Shown here piece after piece: positions 83 to 12,361 of a stretch of 12,597 nt of DNA. How positions within the stretch are numbered: position 1 is the stretch's first letter; every line of letters starts with the position of its first letter. A program made the position numbers and the translations under genes. The notes under the pieces were generated by a model. The model saw nothing but the letters and a program-made list of their open reading frames with translations, had not been told where the DNA came from and searched no databases. Source of the stretch: Planctomycetota bacterium (GTDB lineage: Bacteria > Planctomycetota > Phycisphaerae > WQYP01); assembly GCA_021828935.1 (NCBI GenBank), contig JAJZCU010000018.1, positions 1 through 12,597 on the forward strand. Direction: 5' to 3'.

Positions 83-3000
83 ATGCAAACAAGCTCTATG
101 CAAACAAAAGGTCTGGAAATGAACCTGAAATCTGGTCCGGAAGCCACAGCCCAAACGCCGCACACGTTTGATCCGGAATTTCTCAAACACACCGGCAATA
201 CATCCGTGGTGGGGCTGCAGTGGGGCGATGAGGGCAAGGGTAAATTGGTGGATTTGCTCACGCCGCACTTTGACGTGGCCGTGCGCTGGAACGGGGGCAG
301 CAACGCCGGACATTCGGTAAAAATAGGCGAGAAAAAATACGCTTTGCATTTGATGCCCGTGAGCATTTTGCGCCGCAATTGTCTTTCGGTCATTGCCGGG
401 GGCGTGGCGCTGGACCCTATTAAACTATTGGAGGAAATGGACCAATTGGCCACGCAGGGGGTGGAAATTGGGGATAACTTTAAGTTGTCCAGCGCCGCCC
501 ATGTCGTGCTGCCGTACCACAAATTGCAGGATCAGCTGTCCGAACAGCGGCTGGGTACGGGTAAAATAGGCACCACGGCGCGGGGCATTGGTCCGTGCTA
601 TGCGGACAAGGCGAATCGATCGACGGCCATTCGCGTGGCGGATTTGTTGGACGATCATCGGCTGCGCGACAAATTGCGGCGAAAAAAATCGGCTGCCACC
701 ACGCCTGCGCCCGATTCCACGCCATTGCCGCATCGGGCGGGGCTGATGCTCTGCCAGCTTGTGGACCAGCCGTTCGATCACCCTGATTGGATATTCGAGC
801 CGAAGCTCGACGGTTTGCGCGCCCTGTGCCGATGTGACGGGCACGCCATTGAAATCATCAGCCGCAATGACAAATCGCAAACGCACCGCTTTCCGGAAGT
901 GGCGGGTTGCCTGCGAAAAGCAGTAAAAAAGCCGGCCCTGCTGGATGGGGAAATTGTCTGTCTGGACGACGCGGGCCGCAGCAGTTTTCACCAAATTCAG
1001 CAGCGCTTTGGGTTGGAAAATCCCGCGGTGATTGCCCAACGCGCGGCCGCCTTTCCCGCCTTATTATTTGTGTTTGATATCCTGCACTTTGATGGGCACG
1101 ATCTTACGGGCTTGCCGTTGAGCCAGCGCAAGAAAATTCTGGCCCGCGCGGTGCGGCCCAATGATTGCGTCCGCCTGACGCCCGTGTGGCCCGAACAGGG
1201 CAGGGAACGTCACGCCGATGCCTGCCGGAGGTCCGAAGAGGGCATTGTCGGCAAGCGGCTGGACAGCACGTATGTCGCGGCGCGCAACGGGGCGTGGGTG
1301 AAAATTAAGTGCGTGAATCGGCAGGAATTTGTCATTGGCGGATACACGGATCCGCAGCGGTCGCGGGTGGGGTTCGGGGCGTTGTTGCTGGGCTATTTTG
1401 ACTCCGCCGGAAAGTTGGTCTACGCCGGCAAGGTTGGCACGGGATACTCCGATGCGCTGCTGACCAGCTTGTTAGAAAAATTGAATGGGTTGGCCAGCGC
1501 TGCAAACCCTTTTAACGCGGGCGTTGCGCCGGGCGACCAGGGCGTGCATTGGGTGAAGCCAAGGTTGGTCTGCGAGATAGGCTTTGCCGAGTGGACGCAG
1601 GACGGCCTCGTGCGGCAGGGGCGGTTTAAGGGGCTGCGGGAAGACAAAGATGCCCGCAGCGTACGGCGTGAGCAGCCCGAGCATGTGGCCGCGGCTGGGA
1701 AAAATAAGGACGGCAAACACTTGGAGCGAAACGTGAAAACAAGCAACAAGACAGCGACGGGCGGAAGCCAAACTTCGCGATCAAGCAAGCGTAATCCGGC
1801 CGAGCAGCCCAAAGAGCCCGCGGGGGACGAAGCCCAACCGCTGGATACGTACCGCCAGAAGCGCCGCTTTAACGCCACGCCAGAGCCCAGTGGCACAGCT
1901 CGCCGCAGCGCGCCCGCCGCCGGCCACAGTTTTGTTATTCAGGAACACCACGCCTCGCATCTGCACTATGATCTTCGACTGGAGGTTGACGGCGTTCTGA
2001 AAAGCTGGGCCGTGCCCAAGGAGCCGGTGATGGACGTTGCAGTGAAGCGTCTCGCCGTGCAAGTGGAAGACCATCCGCTGGAGTACGCCACGTTTCACGG
2101 TGATATTCCGCAGGGGGAGTACGGCGGCGGGCATGTGGAAATCTGGGATTCCGGCGCGTATGAAAATTTGATGGCGGAAAAAAATCCGCCGCTGGACATG
2201 CCCGCGGCGTTGGAGGCTGGACATCTGGAATTTGCGCTGCATGGACAGCGGCTGCACGGGGCGTTTGCCATGGTGCGCATGAAGGGGCCGCGGCAAAAGG
2301 CCAACTGGCTGCTTATTAAGATGAAAGACGCCCGGGAGGGCGGCGGGCCTGACCCCGCTGGCCGAACCGCAGCCAATCCGGATGCGCCGGGCGCCGCGCC
2401 GGCCAGGGCGGCGAAATTGCGAAAGCCGCCCAAACACGCTGCGCACCCCCATGCCGCGGCCACGCATTCCAACGCTGCCAAGGGGACAACGGCCGCCGCC
2501 GCGCCGGGCATTCCTGAATTTACCCATGTCGACAAGGTGTTATTTCCCGAAACCGGCGTGACCAAGGGCGACGTATTAAAATACTATTTATCCGTCGCCG
2601 ATCGGCTGCTGCCGTGGTTAAAAGACCGGCCCATCACCGTGGAGCGCCTGCCGGACGGGGTTCAAGCCGGGGCGCCGCAATTCTGGCAGAAAAACACGCC
2701 GACGTATTATCCGGACTACATTCCGCGCATCACCCTGGCGGACGAGCATGGCAAGCATAAGAAAATAGACTATGCCTTAATTAACAATGTTGAGGCGCTC
2801 CTGTATTTTGTCAACGCCGGCGCCCTGACGTTTCACACCTGGTTTTCACATGTGGGGTCGTTGGATAAACCTGGTTATGTGCTCTTTGATTTTGACATCG
2901 GCCCCGCGGACTTCGCGGACTGCGTAACGGCGGCGAAAAATTTGCGCAAGCTGCTGGAAGACCAGCGGCTTGACCCCGTGGTGAAAACTTCGGGCAAGTC

Positions 3001-3358
3001 CGGCCTGCATGTGCTGGCCGCGCCGCCGCAGCCCACATTTGAGGCCGCCCGGGGATGGGCCATGGACCTGGCGCTGCAGTTGGTGAAGCTGCAGCCCGCG
3101 GCGCTGACCGTTGAACGTTCCAAGGAAAAACGCCAGGGGCGCATTTACGTGGATGTCATGCAGAATGGCAAGGGCAAGCATGTCGTGCCGCCGTATGTGT
3201 TGCGGCCCACGCCGCTGGCCACGGTTTCCATGCCGTTGGAATGGAAGGATATAACCGCCAGCCTGGATGTGAAAAAATACACGCTGGCCAAGGCGCAAGA
3301 CATTCTTGATAAACGAAAGACTGACCCGCTGGAGCCCCCGCGGGCGGCCCTGGGGTAG
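83..3358 (+). CDS. ligD: Fusion of truncated PurA N-terminus with three-domain DNA ligase D (LIG-PE-POL)
   Basis: LigD repairs double-strand breaks in bacterial NHEJ with Ku: it adds nucleotides, trims 3' ends and seals. Seen in the 1091-aa frame: residues 40-199 are PurA-like (separate entry); ~216-530 are an ATP-dependent ligase with motif I EPKLDGLR (nucleotidyl Lys241), motif [11 protein letters not shown] (331-338), motif [10 protein letters not shown] (385-392), motif V WVKIKC and an OB fold; ~587-750 are a phosphoesterase with H622, H628, D630, R632, H664 and Y668 matching the Pseudomonas active site; ~812-1080 are an AEP-type polymerase with D936/D938, SGKSGLH (970-976) and D1024. Lys/Ser-rich (531-586) and Ala/Pro/His-rich (751-811) linkers separate the domains. 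LIG-PE-POL differs from Pseudomonas (PE-LIG-POL) and mycobacteria (POL-PE-LIG). Starts at 83, 98 and 119 are all possible; 119 has AAAGG upstream. No stop lies between the PurA and LigD parts. LigD identity is very sure; a single native protein is not. Confidence 0.9.
200..679 (+). pseudogene. purA: purA remnant: N-terminal third of adenylosuccinate synthetase inside the fusion frame
   Basis: Adenylosuccinate synthetase joins IMP and aspartate using GTP in AMP synthesis. Residues 40-199 of the fusion follow the family closely: the phosphate loop [11 protein letters not shown] (44-54) with its catalytic Asp, GGSNAGHS (71-78) with its catalytic His, and the IMP-binding stretch [10 protein letters not shown] (162-171). 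Similarity stops after [10 protein letters not shown] (191-200), about a third of the way through a ~430-residue enzyme, and the next residues read as a LigD-type linker. The GTP base-binding and aspartate-binding C-terminal part is absent, and I found no continuation in the other frames after the A7 run at 682-688. It should therefore be inactive as PurA. A second, complete purA elsewhere would be expected, but this window cannot show that. Confidence 0.78.
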
Positions 3359-3455: not shown

Positions 3456-5153
3456 ATGGCCAAACCGTCGCCCCAACCCAACGTGCTGGACGATGAAAGT
3501 TCGCCCAAGCTGCCGCCGCGGTTCTGGCTTTTGGTAATTATCACAGGGGTTGGCGCGGGCCTGGGCGCCTCCGCCCTGATGGCGCTTCTGCGCCTGGCCC
3601 AGCACCTTTCATTTTCCTATTCACACTGGCAATTCCAGCATGCGGTGGAAATGGTCTCCGACCGGCGCCGGGTGCTGGTGCTGGTGGCCGCGGGCGTGTT
3701 AACGGCCTTGGCGCCATGGTTACTTCGTAAGATATTTAAGAAAGATCCTGGGCAGGTGTGCAAATCCATTTGGTTCGAGGCGGGGCAACTGCCCTTTGTG
3801 CATACGGTATTGAACGCCGCCTTGTCTATTATTTTAGTTGGCATGGGCACGTCCGTGGGGCGCGAAGGGGCGCCGAAGGAAGTCGGGGCCACTATTGGCA
3901 GCAAGCTTTCCAATTGGGCAAAACTCACGCCCGCGCAACGCCGGCTGCTGGTGGCCTGCGGGGCCGGCGCGGGCATGGGCGCGGTTTACAATGTGCCATT
4001 CGGCGGGGCGCTTTTTGCCGTGGAGGTGCTGCTGGGTACGCTGGCGCTACCGCTGGTGGTTCCAGCGCTGTTAACCGCGATGATTGCGACGGCAGTGTCA
4101 TGGATCACGCTGCCCATCCGCCCCACTTATACCGTGCCCACGTATCATCTTGCGGCGCCGGTGGTGGTGTGGGCCATTGTGCTGGGCCCGCTGGCCGGTC
4201 TGGTGTCCGTGCTGTACATCAAGGCCATTGCGTGGGCCACGGAAAACAAGCCCAAGCGCGTCCGCGGCATGATCGTGCCGCTGGTGGTGTTCACGGGCCT
4301 GGGTTTTTTGTCAATCCCGTACCCGCAGCTTCTGGGCAACGGCAAGGATCTGGTGCAGCAGGTATTTTTTGGCCAGCACCTGGGTATTTTACTGCTGATC
4401 GCACTTTTCCTGCTAAAGCCCACGGTTACCTCGGGCTGCTTAAGCAGCGGAGCGCCCGGAGGATTGTTCACGCCCACCATCACCACGGGCGCGCTTTTCG
4501 GCGCCCTGCTGGGCTCAGTCTGGAACCGTTATTGGCCGGGATCTCCGCTGGGCAGTTATTCCGTTGTCGCAGCCGCGGCGTTTCTGGCCGCCGCCACGCA
4601 GGGGCCAGTATCTTCTTTGGTACTGGTGCTTGAGCTTACCCGTTATACCGATTCGATCATGGTTCCCATGCTGTTGGCCGTGGCCGGCGCCACGCTGGTG
4701 TCGCGGTATATCGACCCGCGTTCCATTTATTCAGCGCGAATTGTACGTGCGGAAAAAGACGCCAAACCGCCGGGCAAGGCCGCGGGCACGGCTTTCGACG
4801 ATTTAATATCAGTCAAATGCGGCGTGGTCTCCGCCGCCACGCGCTACATGATTGTGCTGGAACGCATGATTAAACAAACCGACGCCCAGGGCCCGCTGTA
4901 CGTGGTGGATGAAAAGGGAAAACTCACCGGCCAAATTACGCCTGAGACCATTGATAATGCCGGCCACATGGGCGCCCCTTTGGAAGCGCGCACGGCCTCG
5001 GATATTACAGTTCCCGTGAGAAAGCTTAGTTCGACCATGCAGCGAGAGGAGGTCAGGCAACAACTCAAAGAATGGGGCGAGCCCGAAGTGCCCGTGGTGG
5101 ATGCGAAGACGGAACAGTTTTTGGGCGTTGTAAGAGTCAGTGATCTGCCATGA
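3456..5153 (+). CDS. CLC-family anion channel/transporter with C-terminal CBS pair
   Basis: Membrane protein moving chloride or another anion, 565 aa, with about ten hydrophobic stretches between residues 22 and 418. Family motifs seen: GREG (135-138) with the gating glutamate E137, the half-turn GAGAGMGAVYNVPFGGALFAVE (169-190, pieces quoted), GGLFTP (335-340), and Tyr425 in SIYSAR, which aligns with the central-gate Tyr445 of E. coli CLC-ec1. Residues ~448-565 form a cytosolic CBS pair, a likely nucleotide or regulatory module. Two deviations: the usual GSGIP selectivity loop is replaced by DPGQV around 97-101, and the internal proton glutamate (E203 in CLC-ec1) is Val191. The second is typical of passive channels, so it may be a channel rather than a Cl-/H+ exchanger; this is inference. 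The start has AAGGAAA about 6 nt upstream. A 97-nt gap follows the LigD frame. Confidence 0.93.
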   Translation: MAKPSPQPNVLDDESSPKLPPRFWLLVIITGVGAGLGASALMALLRLAQHLSFSYSHWQFQHAVEMVSDRRRVLVLVAAGVLTALAPWLLRKIFKKDPGQVCKSIWFEAGQLPFVHTVLNAALSIILVGMGTSVGREGAPKEVGATIGSKLSNWAKLTPAQRRLLVACGAGAGMGAVYNVPFGGALFAVEVLLGTLALPLVVPALLTAMIATAVSWITLPIRPTYTVPTYHLAAPVVVWAIVLGPLAGLVSVLYIKAIAWATENKPKRVRGMIVPLVVFTGLGFLSIPYPQLLGNGKDLVQQVFFGQHLGILLLIALFLLKPTVTSGCLSSGAPGGLFTPTITTGALFGALLGSVWNRYWPGSPLGSYSVVAAAAFLAAATQGPVSSLVLVLELTRYTDSIMVPMLLAVAGATLVSRYIDPRSIYSARIVRAEKDAKPPGKAAGTAFDDLISVKCGVVSAATRYMIVLERMIKQTDAQGPLYVVDEKGKLTGQITPETIDNAGHMGAPLEARTASDITVPVRKLSSTMQREEVRQQLKEWGEPEVPVVDAKTEQFLGVVRVSDLP

Positions 5154-5232
5154 AATTTTAAGCCGCGGGATTGCCGGCGTCATGGGTACGGCGTCAACGT
5201 CGCGCCACGGGTGCAACGCCGCCGCGTTCGAT

Positions 5233-5238
5233 TATAAT
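5233..5238 (+). promoter_or_regulatory. Candidate -10 box TATAAT upstream of the GHMP kinase
   Basis: A perfect TATAAT lies in the 172-nt stretch between the CLC stop and the first kinase ATG that makes sense (5326). The possible -35 (GTGCAA, 5211-5216, 16-nt spacer) matches the consensus at only three of six bases. In a GC-rich genome a perfect sigma-70 -10 box is unlikely by chance, but the weak -35 keeps this tentative. If real, transcription would begin near 5245, so a translation start at 5140 or 5182 could not be used from this transcript. Confidence 0.33.
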
Positions 5239-5325
5239 CGGCGGCGATGTTTGCACCATGAAAGCTTGAGTACGCCCTTGACCATCAGCGACCATGCACC
5301 TCAGACAAATTTTCACAGCGCGGCG

Positions 5326-6711
5326 ATGGACATTCTCCGGGGGCGCCTTGTCGCCGTCGGCAGCGCGTTTACCGCGGATTTTAATCAACCCATTATTCTG
5401 GCACGGGCGCCGGGTCGTATGGACATCATGGGCGGAATTGCCGATTACACGGGCAGCCTGGTGTGTGAAATGCCTCTGGGCACGGATGCGGCGGTGGCCG
5501 TGCAGAAGCGGGCGGACCGGCGGTTGCGCATCACCACCTTCAACGCCCTGCCTGACAACGCCCCGCAGACGGTGGAACTTTCGCTGGATGATTTATACGG
5601 GTCGGGCGCGTTGATATCGCCGGCGGCGGCGCAGGCATTGTTTGCTAATAACCGTTGGGCAGCCTATCTGGCCGGGGCGTATTGGGTGCTGGCGAAACAG
5701 CGGAAGCTTAACCGGCGGGCATCGGGGGCGAACATTGCCTGTTACAGCGAAGTGCCGCTGGGGGCGGGGGTTTCCAGCAGCGCCGCGTTGGAAGTGGCGG
5801 CGCTGTGCGCCCTGACCCGCGCTTATCATCTTATTCTTGACCCCATGGAAACGGCGCTGTTGGCCCAGCGTATTGAAAACCAGATTGTCGGCGCCCCCTG
5901 CGGCGTGATGGACCAGGTGGCCAGCATGATGGGCCGGGCTGAACAATTGCTATTGTTAAAATGCCAGCCGCATACCGTGCAGGGATATCTTGATATTCCA
6001 CCCGGCGTGACGTTTATTGGAATTAACAGCAATGTAAAGCACAGCGTGGGCGGCGGGGCCTATGGCCGCACCCGCGTGGCGGCGTTTATGGCGCGGGCCA
6101 TCATTGCCCGGCTGGCCATGCGGCTGGGGGCGCGGGCGGATTTAACCGGCGGTTATCTGGCCAATGTTGATGGGGAACTGTATCGCAATCAATTGCGGCT
6201 GGTGCTGCCGCGAGCCCTTTCAGGACGCGATTTTACGCGCCGTTATGGCTCAACCGGCGACGCCGCCACCACCGTGCAGGATGATGTTTTGTACCATGTC
6301 CGCGCCGCCGCCGACCATCATGTGCTGGAAAACCACCGCGTGGAAACATTTGTCAAGGTGCTTGGGCAACCCGGCGCCGGGGACGCTGAATTTGCCCGGG
6401 CCGGCCGGCTGATGCTGGCTTCGCACGCCAGCTATGGGCAACGGGCCAAATTGGGCAGCGCGGAAACGGATTTATTGGTAAGCGCGCTGATGCGAGCCGG
6501 GCCGGGCAAAGGCATTTATGGCGCGAAGATCACCGGTGGCGGCAGCGGCGGGACGGTGGTGGCCCTGTGCCGGCCCGATGCGCGGCCGGCCGTTGACGAA
6601 GCATGCCGGCATTATCAGGAAAAGACGCATCTAGCGCCGCAGATTATCACCGGCAGCGGCCCGGGGGCGGCGTTTACCGCGCCCGTGACGTTGCGGCTGG
6701 AAGGCCAATAG
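5326..6711 (+). CDS. GHMP sugar kinase, L-arabinokinase/galactokinase-like
   Basis: Cytosolic ATP-dependent sugar kinase of the GHMP fold, probably making a sugar 1-phosphate. With the start at 5326 the protein has 461 residues. Seen: the N-terminal sugar-binding motif APGRMDIMGGIADYTG (28-43), the phosphate loop PLGAGVSSSAA (144-154), GAPCGVMDQ (189-197) with the likely catalytic Asp196, and GAKITGGGSGGT (399-410). The wording is closer to the kinase half of plant ARA1 L-arabinokinase (GRLDVMGGIADYSG, VGAPCGVMDQ, RHSVGG) than to bacterial GalK, which has IGEHTDY at the first motif; here KHSVGG is at 238-243. L-arabinose is thus the best guess, not proven. The frame is open from 5140, overlapping the clc stop, but residues before 5326 show no family similarity and include the TATAAT box. 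No clear Shine-Dalgarno precedes 5326; in-frame TTG codons at 5266 and 5278 are alternatives. Confidence 0.85.
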   Translation: MDILRGRLVAVGSAFTADFNQPIILARAPGRMDIMGGIADYTGSLVCEMPLGTDAAVAVQKRADRRLRITTFNALPDNAPQTVELSLDDLYGSGALISPAAAQALFANNRWAAYLAGAYWVLAKQRKLNRRASGANIACYSEVPLGAGVSSSAALEVAALCALTRAYHLILDPMETALLAQRIENQIVGAPCGVMDQVASMMGRAEQLLLLKCQPHTVQGYLDIPPGVTFIGINSNVKHSVGGGAYGRTRVAAFMARAIIARLAMRLGARADLTGGYLANVDGELYRNQLRLVLPRALSGRDFTRRYGSTGDAATTVQDDVLYHVRAAADHHVLENHRVETFVKVLGQPGAGDAEFARAGRLMLASHASYGQRAKLGSAETDLLVSALMRAGPGKGIYGAKITGGGSGGTVVALCRPDARPAVDEACRHYQEKTHLAPQIITGSGPGAAFTAPVTLRLEGQ

Positions 6712-6745
6712 GGCCCACAGGAACAACCTGGTTTACCCAACAGAC

Positions 6746-6754
6746 GGAAAGAAG
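6746..6754 (+). promoter_or_regulatory. Ribosome binding site fixing the gltX start
   Basis: GGAAAGAAG sits 4 nt before the ATG at 6759. The open frame extends upstream to 6603 inside the kinase gene, but GluRS homology begins at residue 7 of the 6759 start, so this site decides the start. Confidence 0.6.
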
Positions 6755-6758
6755 TTTC

Positions 6759-8378
6759 ATGACAACCCCAATGGTTAAAACCCGCTTCGCGCCTTCCCCC
6801 ACCGGCTACCTGCATGTGGGGGGCGCGCGCACAGCGTTATTTAATTATCTTTTTGCGCGCCGCGCCGGCGGCCAATTTGTGCTGCGCATTGAAGATACCG
6901 ATCAGGTGCGTTCCACCGCCGAATCCGCCGCCGGAATACTGGCGGACATGCAGTGGCTGGGCCTGAATTGGGATGAGGGGCCCGCGCCCGGCGCCGCCAA
7001 AAACCAGTACTTTCAAAGCATGCGGCTGGAGCTTTACAACCAATTTATTGATGAACTGGTGCGCCAGGGCCGGGCGTATGAGGCCTATGAAACCCCGGCG
7101 GAACTCGCCGCCATGCGCCAGCAGGCGGAACGCGAGAAGCGGCCGTTCCGCTATCGGCGTGATATGCCCGGACGGGCACAAAGCCGGATTGGAAGCGGGC
7201 CGGCGGTGCTCCGCTTCGAGATGCCGCGGAAGGACATTGTGATCTCTGATTTGGTGCTGGGCCAGGTGATCGTGGGCGCCGATGAACATGACGATATTAT
7301 CATCAGAAAGTCGGATGGCTTTCCCACGTATCATTTTGCGGTGGTTATTGATGACCACGACATGGGCATTACGCATGTGCTGCGGGCGCAGGAACATTTG
7401 ATGAACACGCCCAAGCATCTGGCGCTGTATGATGCCTTCAACTGGACCCCGCCGGAGCACGGCCATCTGCCGCTGGTGTTCAACATGGACGGCACAAAAA
7501 TGTCCAAGCGGGAAAAGGCCCGCACGGCGCGGGCGGCGGTTCAGGCCGCCACGCCCAAGGGGCAGAAGCCGGATTTGGAAACGCTGGCCGCCAACACCGG
7601 CGTTGCCCCCGACGCGCTGGCGGCATTTATGGCCAAAAAAAACGATGACGCCCAAATCGCGGTGACAGTGGCGGCCTTCATGCGCACGCCGCTGCCGGAA
7701 ATTGACGTACAGGATTTTCGCCGCAGCGGCTACCTTGCGGACGCCTTGTTAAATTTTGTGGCGCTGGTGGGCTGGTCCCCCGGCGGCAATCAGGAAATTC
7801 TTGCCCGCCCGGAGATGATTGACAAATTTCTGGTGGAAGGCATCGGCAAGACCAATGGCCGGTTTGATCGCAAGAAATTGCTTTGGATGAACGGCCAATA
7901 TGTCCGCGACCAGTCGCTGGAAGCGTTGCTTGCGGCGTTGGAAAGTTTTTTGCAGGTTACGGATTACCCTCTGGCGCGGGCCGACGGGCCAACCAGGCTC
8001 GCGCTGCTGGAAATGTACCGCGAACGCACCGGCACGTTGGCGGAAATGGCGGAGAATTCCCGTTTCTTCTTTGAAGAGCCGACGATTGACCCCAGGGCGT
8101 TTGAAAAATTTGTGATAAACAACGATGGCGCGCAACTGCTGCAAACCAGCCGCAAGATTTTGGAACCCGTCACGCCCTGGAACGTGCAGACGCTGCGGGA
8201 GCCGGTGGAACAAATTCTGGCCCTGGGGGAAAAGCGAGGCGCGGCGGCCCAGCCAATACGCGTGGCCGTCAGCGGCGGCTCCGTCACCCCGCCGGTTCTG
8301 GAGATGCTGGCGCTCCTGGGCCGCGAAACCACGCTGCGGCGCATCGATCAGACTCTCGCGAACGTGAAGGCAACATGA
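6759..8378 (+). CDS. gltX: Glutamyl-tRNA synthetase (class Ic)
   Basis: Charges tRNA-Glu (and often tRNA-Gln where GlnRS is lacking) with glutamate in the cytosol. The protein has 539 residues, longer than the usual ~470-490. Seen: HIGH-type signature FAPSPTGYLHVGGART (10-25), LRIEDTD (42-48), a catalytic core with THVLRAQEHLMNTPKH (205-220), and KMSKR (247-251). The helical anticodon-binding half starts around residue 370, after the KTNGRFDRKKLLWMNG stretch (364-379). Between KMSKR and the conserved GYLADALLNFVALVGWSPG (324-342) there are about 70 residues, where most bacterial enzymes have about 10-15; this insert explains the extra length. The cysteine zinc site of the E. coli enzyme is absent; there is no Cys in the protein. 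It lies 47 nt after the kinase stop, so the two may be co-transcribed. Confidence 0.96.
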   Translation: MTTPMVKTRFAPSPTGYLHVGGARTALFNYLFARRAGGQFVLRIEDTDQVRSTAESAAGILADMQWLGLNWDEGPAPGAAKNQYFQSMRLELYNQFIDELVRQGRAYEAYETPAELAAMRQQAEREKRPFRYRRDMPGRAQSRIGSGPAVLRFEMPRKDIVISDLVLGQVIVGADEHDDIIIRKSDGFPTYHFAVVIDDHDMGITHVLRAQEHLMNTPKHLALYDAFNWTPPEHGHLPLVFNMDGTKMSKREKARTARAAVQAATPKGQKPDLETLAANTGVAPDALAAFMAKKNDDAQIAVTVAAFMRTPLPEIDVQDFRRSGYLADALLNFVALVGWSPGGNQEILARPEMIDKFLVEGIGKTNGRFDRKKLLWMNGQYVRDQSLEALLAALESFLQVTDYPLARADGPTRLALLEMYRERTGTLAEMAENSRFFFEEPTIDPRAFEKFVINNDGAQLLQTSRKILEPVTPWNVQTLREPVEQILALGEKRGAAAQPIRVAVSGGSVTPPVLEMLALLGRETTLRRIDQTLANVKAT

Positions 8379-10857: not shown

Positions 10858-12361
10858 CGCCAAGTGCGCGCGGCACGCAATCCGCGGCTTCACGCGACGG
10901 CGTCCCGGCTTGGAGGCGCCTGCCAACCGGCGGGCTTCTGCTGGCCGCCGCGCTGGCCGCACCCGCAGGCGTCGCCGGCGCCCGTTCGCGCAACGCCGGA
11001 TCATCCGGAACCGTGGTGCTGGGCGAATCACCCGCGTTCTATAACGCCCGCTGGCGCAAGCGTATGCGCAGGTATGTTGCTTTTTACCGCGCGGCGCTTT
11101 TCACGGGCTTTCAACGTTCCGCCTACCATAATAAACCATGGGACGCGCCGGCCGAACAGGCCCTGGCGTTACGCGCCGCCAACCAGACCCCTACCACTGG
11201 CCCAACGGCGAAGCGTTCTACCGCATCCTGTATTATTCTAATAAAGCCATTGCCGCCGGCTGCCGCGACCCGGAGATTCATCTGTTAAAAAGTCGGTCCC
11301 AGATGAAGCTGGGAATTCATCCGGCGGCGGCGGAAAAGGACGTGTTAAAGTATTACCCCGCCATGCAGCGCAGCGGGTATCCGCCCTGCCTGAAGGCTTA
11401 TGATCTTATTGCCGCCCTGCACGCCGCCGCCGCCGTCAAGCCGCCCTGGCCCGGGGCCGCCCGCAAAGTCATGCTTACTAAACTCCAGCGCCTGTTCCCG
11501 GCGATCCTGGCGGAAAAGGGCCTGCCCGGCCCGGACGTTGTCGAATTAATGGCCCGCTACGAGGGCCTGTATAAAACGCTTTACGGCGCCCGGGCGCCGG
11601 CCCTGCGCCGCATGATCGTTCTTATCAACAAAGCCCGGCCGCTGCGGTCCGTGTGCTGGGATGTCAAGGGCATTTCTTACATTAACTACGCCTGGGACGC
11701 CCGCGGCTTTTCCCCCGCCGTTCCGCCCGATCGTCTGATTTTATTTGTTAAACGCCTGGCCGTTGCCCGCGCCGCGCTGCAGCACGCCTATGGCATCAAC
11801 CCGCGCGATTACATGGCCGCCACGTTGATGATCATGGTGGACATGGGCCTGGGCCGGAAAATCCCCGACATGAACCGCTGGTTCCACCGCGCCATTGACG
11901 CCAATCCCGATGATTTCCTGGCATATTCCAAGAAGAAACGTTTTCTCTACCGCCGCTGGGGCGGCAGCCGCCATCAGTTGCTGCGCTTCGCCCGGCAATG
12001 CGCCGCCAATCACGGCTATGCCGGCGGAGTGCGGTTTATGGCGTGCCTCATTTACAACCATGTCGCGGCTTACAATGGAGCGGCCCTGAACCCGTACACC
12101 GGCAACGCGTTTTTCAAGCACGCCCGACGGTGGAAACGCATCGACGCCCTTTTCACAAATTATCTCCGCCGCTTTCCGCATGATTATTACCATCGCTGGT
12201 GGCTGGCGCAATACGCCGCCTGGTGCGGGCATTGGCGCATCGCCCGGCAACAAATCGCGCTGTGCGGGAAACACCTGCGTCCGCGGATTTTCGGATTAAA
12301 AAACAACGCCGCCATGCTGCGTGAGTTTGTCAAGACAGTCAACGCGCATGTGAAGAAATGA
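10836..12361 (+). CDS. Secreted protein of unknown function, interrupted by a -1 frameshift near 11186
   Basis: I do not recognise the family. The first part (10836-11186, 117 codons) has a signal peptide: a basic stretch ending WRRLP (26-30), hydrophobic TGGLLLAAALAAPAGVAGA (31-49) and an AGA cleavage site. The frame then becomes non-homologous-looking, while the frame one base back carries on with DPYHWPNGEAFYRI to 12361 (391 codons). One missing G in CAGACCCC would rejoin them into about 508 residues. No slippery heptamer is visible, so programmed slippage is unlikely; a sequencing error or a real mutation is likelier. The mature part is rich in Tyr, Trp, Arg and Ala helices (AIDANPDDFLAYSKKKRFLY, RFPHDYYHRWWLAQYAAWCG), loosely TPR-like. 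The start may be ATG 10836 (AAGGA 5 nt upstream) or GTG 10854, whose GTGA overlaps the gmhA stop; either implies coupling to gmhA. Probably periplasmic. Confidence 0.72.

Follow-up and report, generated by a model that had tools for sequence, protein, structure and literature searches.

The window, the whole 12,597-nucleotide stretch of DNA analysed here, is the entire contig C261 of its own genome bin, which holds 2,657,951 bases in 490 contigs and is 53.69% complete. Near its left end, a single reading frame (83-3358, + strand, 1091 aa) passes from adenylosuccinate synthetase (PurA) sequence into DNA ligase D (LigD), with no stop between the two. An earlier sequence-only reading had described an N-terminal third of PurA fused in frame to a complete LigD, and this description was borne out by the frame and by its Pfam domains. 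Adenylsucc_synt (PF00709, profile positions 2-162 of 416, 203.7 bits) was placed at residues 42-202 of the fused protein, followed by the DNA ligase domains at residues 231-409 and 429-522 (PF01068, PF04679), LigD_N (PE) at residues 620-732 (PF13298) and LigD_Prim-Pol at residues 827-1082 (PF21686), the domains of the LigD part all scoring above cut-off. Among the NCBIfam models, TIGR02776 (LigD; 497.2 bits vs a cut-off of 373.2), TIGR02779 and TIGR02777 were also above cut-off, TIGR02778 was slightly under it (210.9 vs 214.7) and PRK05972 was under it (738.6 vs 895). The LigD part therefore carries ligase, phosphoesterase and primase-polymerase in a single chain, as the definition of DNA ligase D demands. 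The PurA part is not a full-length synthetase by the curated cut-off, as TIGR00184 (PurA) reached 173.6 bits vs 395.55 and aligned over profile positions 2-161 of 425 only. This piece of approximately 670 bases, at the contig end, shows 61-74% identity with the PurA proteins of family relatives, and both its GDEGKGK loop and its N-terminal PurA third are intact. It is not expected to work as a synthetase because Pfam profile positions 163-416 are missing. GC and GC3 are 0.562 and 0.676 in the purA piece vs 0.607 and 0.709 in ligD, a small gap that settles nothing, and the actual purA start may be a later ATG, e.g. at 119.

Table 1 Features of the window.
Feature	Position	Strand	Basis
5' piece of purA (approximately 160 N-terminal positions out of ~430), lying at the contig end	83..673	+	PF00709, family identity
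Joint between purA (...RDK) and ligD (KKSAATT...), the L-R-R codons ttg cgg cga being probably in part common to both	671..685	+	P0001, PurA homologues
ligD minus its first 7 residues (MPTGTKT in P0001), LIG-PE-POL	674..3358	+	Pfam, NCBIfam, P0001
CLC-type chloride channel protein	3456..5153	+	Pfam PF00654
GHMP kinase, galactokinase-like	5140..6711	+	Pfam PF00288, PF08544, PF10509
gltX, glutamyl-tRNA synthetase (start probably downstream of 6603)	6603..8378	+	Pfam PF00749, PF19269

The CLC protein has near full-length matches (49-51% identity) in 4 of 24 family relatives, and the window gltX is 63-67% identical to its counterparts in 23 of the 24, G015 being without a match. An ORF at window 11138-12361 (407 aa) has a weak DUF4034 match alone (22.4 bits). 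LigD is known as the three-domain partner of Ku, as set out in PMC7719229, and such a partner is present in the bin: Ku (PF02735, 174.3 bits) was found on contig G000:C416, and the same model matched only Bacillus subtilis among 14 control genomes. Since Ku is present, end joining is likely to be real in the bin organism. LigD-like pieces were seen in just one of the 27 other family genomes (G009, 32-48% identical), so this ligD was perhaps acquired. In the class relative G027, the LigD matches are ordered PE, LIG, POL, and those of the window LIG-PE-POL.

The fused protein was searched against 5.8 billion proteins, giving 1139 matches of which the best 120 were listed. Among these, P0001 is a LigD of 901 aa without the PurA piece; its cluster has 2 members and sits on a single contig of 11,989 bases. 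Over 894 of its 901 residues it equals the C-terminal part of the fused protein, i.e. nt 674 to the stop, and its first seven residues are MPTGTKT; none of PTGTKT, MPTG and TKTLRR is encoded in any of the window's six frames. Because P0001 is identical from nt 674 and begins with MPTGTKT, the same LigD has an ordinary start of its own. MPTGTKT is further supported as the native start by the homologue P0003 (LigD, 52% identical), which begins MPTSLKTRRARAP and thus resembles the start of P0001. In the match list P0001 bears the sign given to proteins of the window itself, although its start is not encoded there; our guess is that it may stem from the same sample in a different assembly. Given equal right ends, the left end of its contig would fall 44 bases before the ligD start, a figure based on the difference in length (12,597 - 11,989 = 608 bases). 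Using P0001 to scan genome contigs returned 22 loci at 32-42% identity and the P0001 contig was not among them, in a scan that may leave out records of the window's own genome. Searching window positions 500-900 against the bin returned the self-match only and no other copy of the joint.

Comparison with P0001 also shows that the joint is slightly upstream of the position given in the sequence-only reading. The A7 run that had been taken to mark the joint does lie at 682-688, but both this run and the stretch of about 15 residues thought to separate PurA from the ligase belong to the ligD coding sequence, namely its N-terminus, because P0001 matches the fused protein without a difference from nt 674 onward. 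Sequence that must be of purA origin extends as far as ...RLRDK, up to nt 673. In the listed PurA homologues (best 120 of 7952), the residue following LxR is I in 88, V in 25, T in 5, S in 1, N in 1 and K in 0, this position being extrapolated where the alignment of a homologue stopped early; LQR was read in 46 and LRR in 3 of the same 120. With I or V at this position in 113 of these 120 homologues, the stretch common to purA and ligD is probably no longer than ~11 nt. If native purA resembles its homologues, the ceiling on the overlap would probably be the nine L-R-R bases plus one base on each side, and the overlap would be smaller still if native PurA reads LQR. Preservation of the frame says little, since a random joint stays in frame one time in three. 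P0241, a 179-aa PurA fragment from a 710-base contig, departs from PurA after DLLDET, approximately 5 residues before the window joint, and represents a second broken purA with nearly the same break point.

The same architecture was not found in any independent genome or protein record. No PurA-LigD fusion was present in the 27 other family genomes, and the PurA motif GDEGKG was found in none of the 119 other listed LigD homologues (P0002-P0120; best 120 of 1139), near the top of which any second fusion would be expected. The search for other fused homologues that the sequence-only reading had proposed thus returned none. Ahead of the ligase core, these 119 homologues carry <60 residues in 104 cases, 60-150 in 1 and at least 150 in 14. 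The nearest LigD relatives among the matches listed are approximately 50% identical and share the Pfam domain set of the window LigD, which differs from P0001 and the 119 others in its N-terminal PurA piece. In the open-licence literature, no paper was found that has 'adenylosuccinate synthetase' together with 'LigD'.

In family relatives, purA has a different and recurrent setting. The PurA frame is uninterrupted (437-554 aa) in 24 of the 27 other family genomes; it is cut by a contig end in 2, and 1 has no match. Downstream of purA, within 4 kb and on the same strand, uppS was found for 21 of the 23 family relatives having both genes and for 13 of the 15 such genomes elsewhere in the class (34/38 in total), and the four exceptions carry purA and uppS on separate contigs. 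Of the 7 neighbourhoods read (L104-L110), 4 have panB following, one of these calls being made by Pfam and the other three by similarity. In the window, the joint is followed instead by ligD, the CLC channel, the galactokinase-like gene and gltX. Family relatives with both matches carry purA and gltX on separate contigs (22/22); in 13 of these the purA contig continues for >6 kb downstream of purA and has no gltX there, and the remaining 9 have contigs of too little length to be informative on the distance between the two. A protein of 725 aa, P0218, found on 5 contigs under the source name adenylosuccinate synthase, carries both PF01255 (UppS) and PF00709 (PurA); given the purA-uppS order of relatives, it could represent either a natural fusion or a frame that runs through two adjacent genes.

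This native purA neighbourhood is absent from the bin. The family model for uppS, which finds the gene in 14/14 control genomes, did not find it in the bin, nor did a relative's protein used as a query, which finds uppS in 38 of 41 genomes. A relative's panB was likewise unmatched in the bin, a weak negative from a search without a positive control. UppS is essential in bacteria, and the absence of its gene is therefore better read as incompleteness of the bin than as a deletion. Neither a second PurA orthologue nor the rest of purA was found in the bin, and the missing remainder may be compatible with a bin that is 54% complete. Among the PurA matches listed, none with >76% identity to the window piece was seen, either full-length (best 120 of 7952) or short (best 120 of 4359).

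Looking for another full-length purA in the genome, as the sequence-only reading had advised, gave no orthologue but only a divergent full-length PurA-like protein of 473 aa on G000:C442 (L103, 3729-5150, - strand), in which GDSGKGS replaces GDEGKGK. As a replacement PurA this protein was rejected, being 29% identical over the N-terminal third and scoring 148.5, far under the purA equivalog cut-off of 395.55; the two scanned ORFs flanking its gene had no Pfam match. On these sequence features, we regard it as a paralogue of a different type. A whole purA and a ligD at a locus of its own, the arrangement in related genomes that by the sequence-only reading would speak against a fusion, were seen in pieces only: ligD stands separate in P0001 and purA is intact in relatives, and the intact purA of the species itself was found neither in the bin nor among the matches listed.

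The fused purA-ligD frame is most likely not a real biological feature. We consider it highly probable that it is a chimera produced by assembly, sitting at the left terminus of a short contig in a fragmentary metagenome-assembled genome. Approximately 670 bases from the 5' end of purA, of the same organism or a close relative, would have been joined to a ligD contig within a short stretch of the L-R-R codons that is probably common to both genes. The real ligD would then begin at its own Met, seven residues ahead of LRR, and its product would be an ordinary LIG-PE-POL LigD acting with Ku in end joining, while the real purA would run on elsewhere, adjoining uppS. Chimeric contigs are a general problem of metagenome assembly, as described in PMC7299287. 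The window resembles such contigs in its short piece at the contig end, its fragmentary bin and the other recorded version of the gene, and differs in that both of its parts resemble the same family. A cross-phylum chimera is not supported, given the identities to the family of the contig's gltX (63-67%) and of the purA piece (61-74%); since both are family-like, the purA piece and the ligD contig probably come from one family. As to the assembly step that made the joint, an overlap of at most ~11 nt is shorter than the usual assembly k-mers, so that ordinary repeat collapse does not explain it; making the joint would have required either gap closing on short overlaps or a chimeric read.

The sequence-only reading had left open a fusion by deletion or an assembly chimera; the start of P0001 and the purA-uppS order of relatives speak for the latter, as do the uninterrupted purA of 24 of the 27 other family genomes and the lack of other fused homologues among those searched, and a deletion giving LigD the purA promoter gained no support. 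A genuine rearrangement in certain cells or strains, joining purA to ligD at L-R-R microhomology beside the P0001 form, nevertheless has a small chance of being correct. The joint preserves the frame and falls where purA and ligD probably have a few bases in common, as expected of a genuine microhomology joint, both sides resemble the same bacterial family, the bin has no other PurA orthologue and its Ku makes end joining plausible. However, a simple purA-to-ligD deletion is unlikely: by the relatives' order it would remove the rest of purA and uppS, and also panB in 4 of the 7 neighbourhoods, and the loss of an essential synthase together with AMP synthesis would be hard to survive. A translocation would be needed instead, since 13 of 22 family relatives have no gltX in the 6 kb that follow purA, and the joint was found nowhere else in the family genomes or the matches listed. 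Slightly less probable again is the specific case of a strain with a real in-frame purA'-ligD, formed by microhomology of ~3-11 nt after a larger rearrangement and expressing LigD with the PurA third, other cells having the P0001 form.

That the frame encodes a true conserved enzyme, in which the PurA third serves LigD as a nucleotide-binding domain, is very improbable: the GDEGKGK loop and the N-terminal third are intact, but the architecture is absent from the 119 listed LigD relatives (best 120 of 1139) and the 27 family genomes, the piece has 160 of ~430 positions and is cut within the fold, and P0001 is entirely without it, so that the nucleotide-binding role imagined in the sequence-only reading gets no support. 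Were the fusion real, a piece of a purine enzyme would sit on a repair ligase and the cell's own AMP synthesis would be in question. The preferred reading, an assembly chimera, means that a convincing in-frame fusion can arise at a contig end in a low-completeness genome, and that such frames should stay out of domain-architecture databases unless they are backed by reads.
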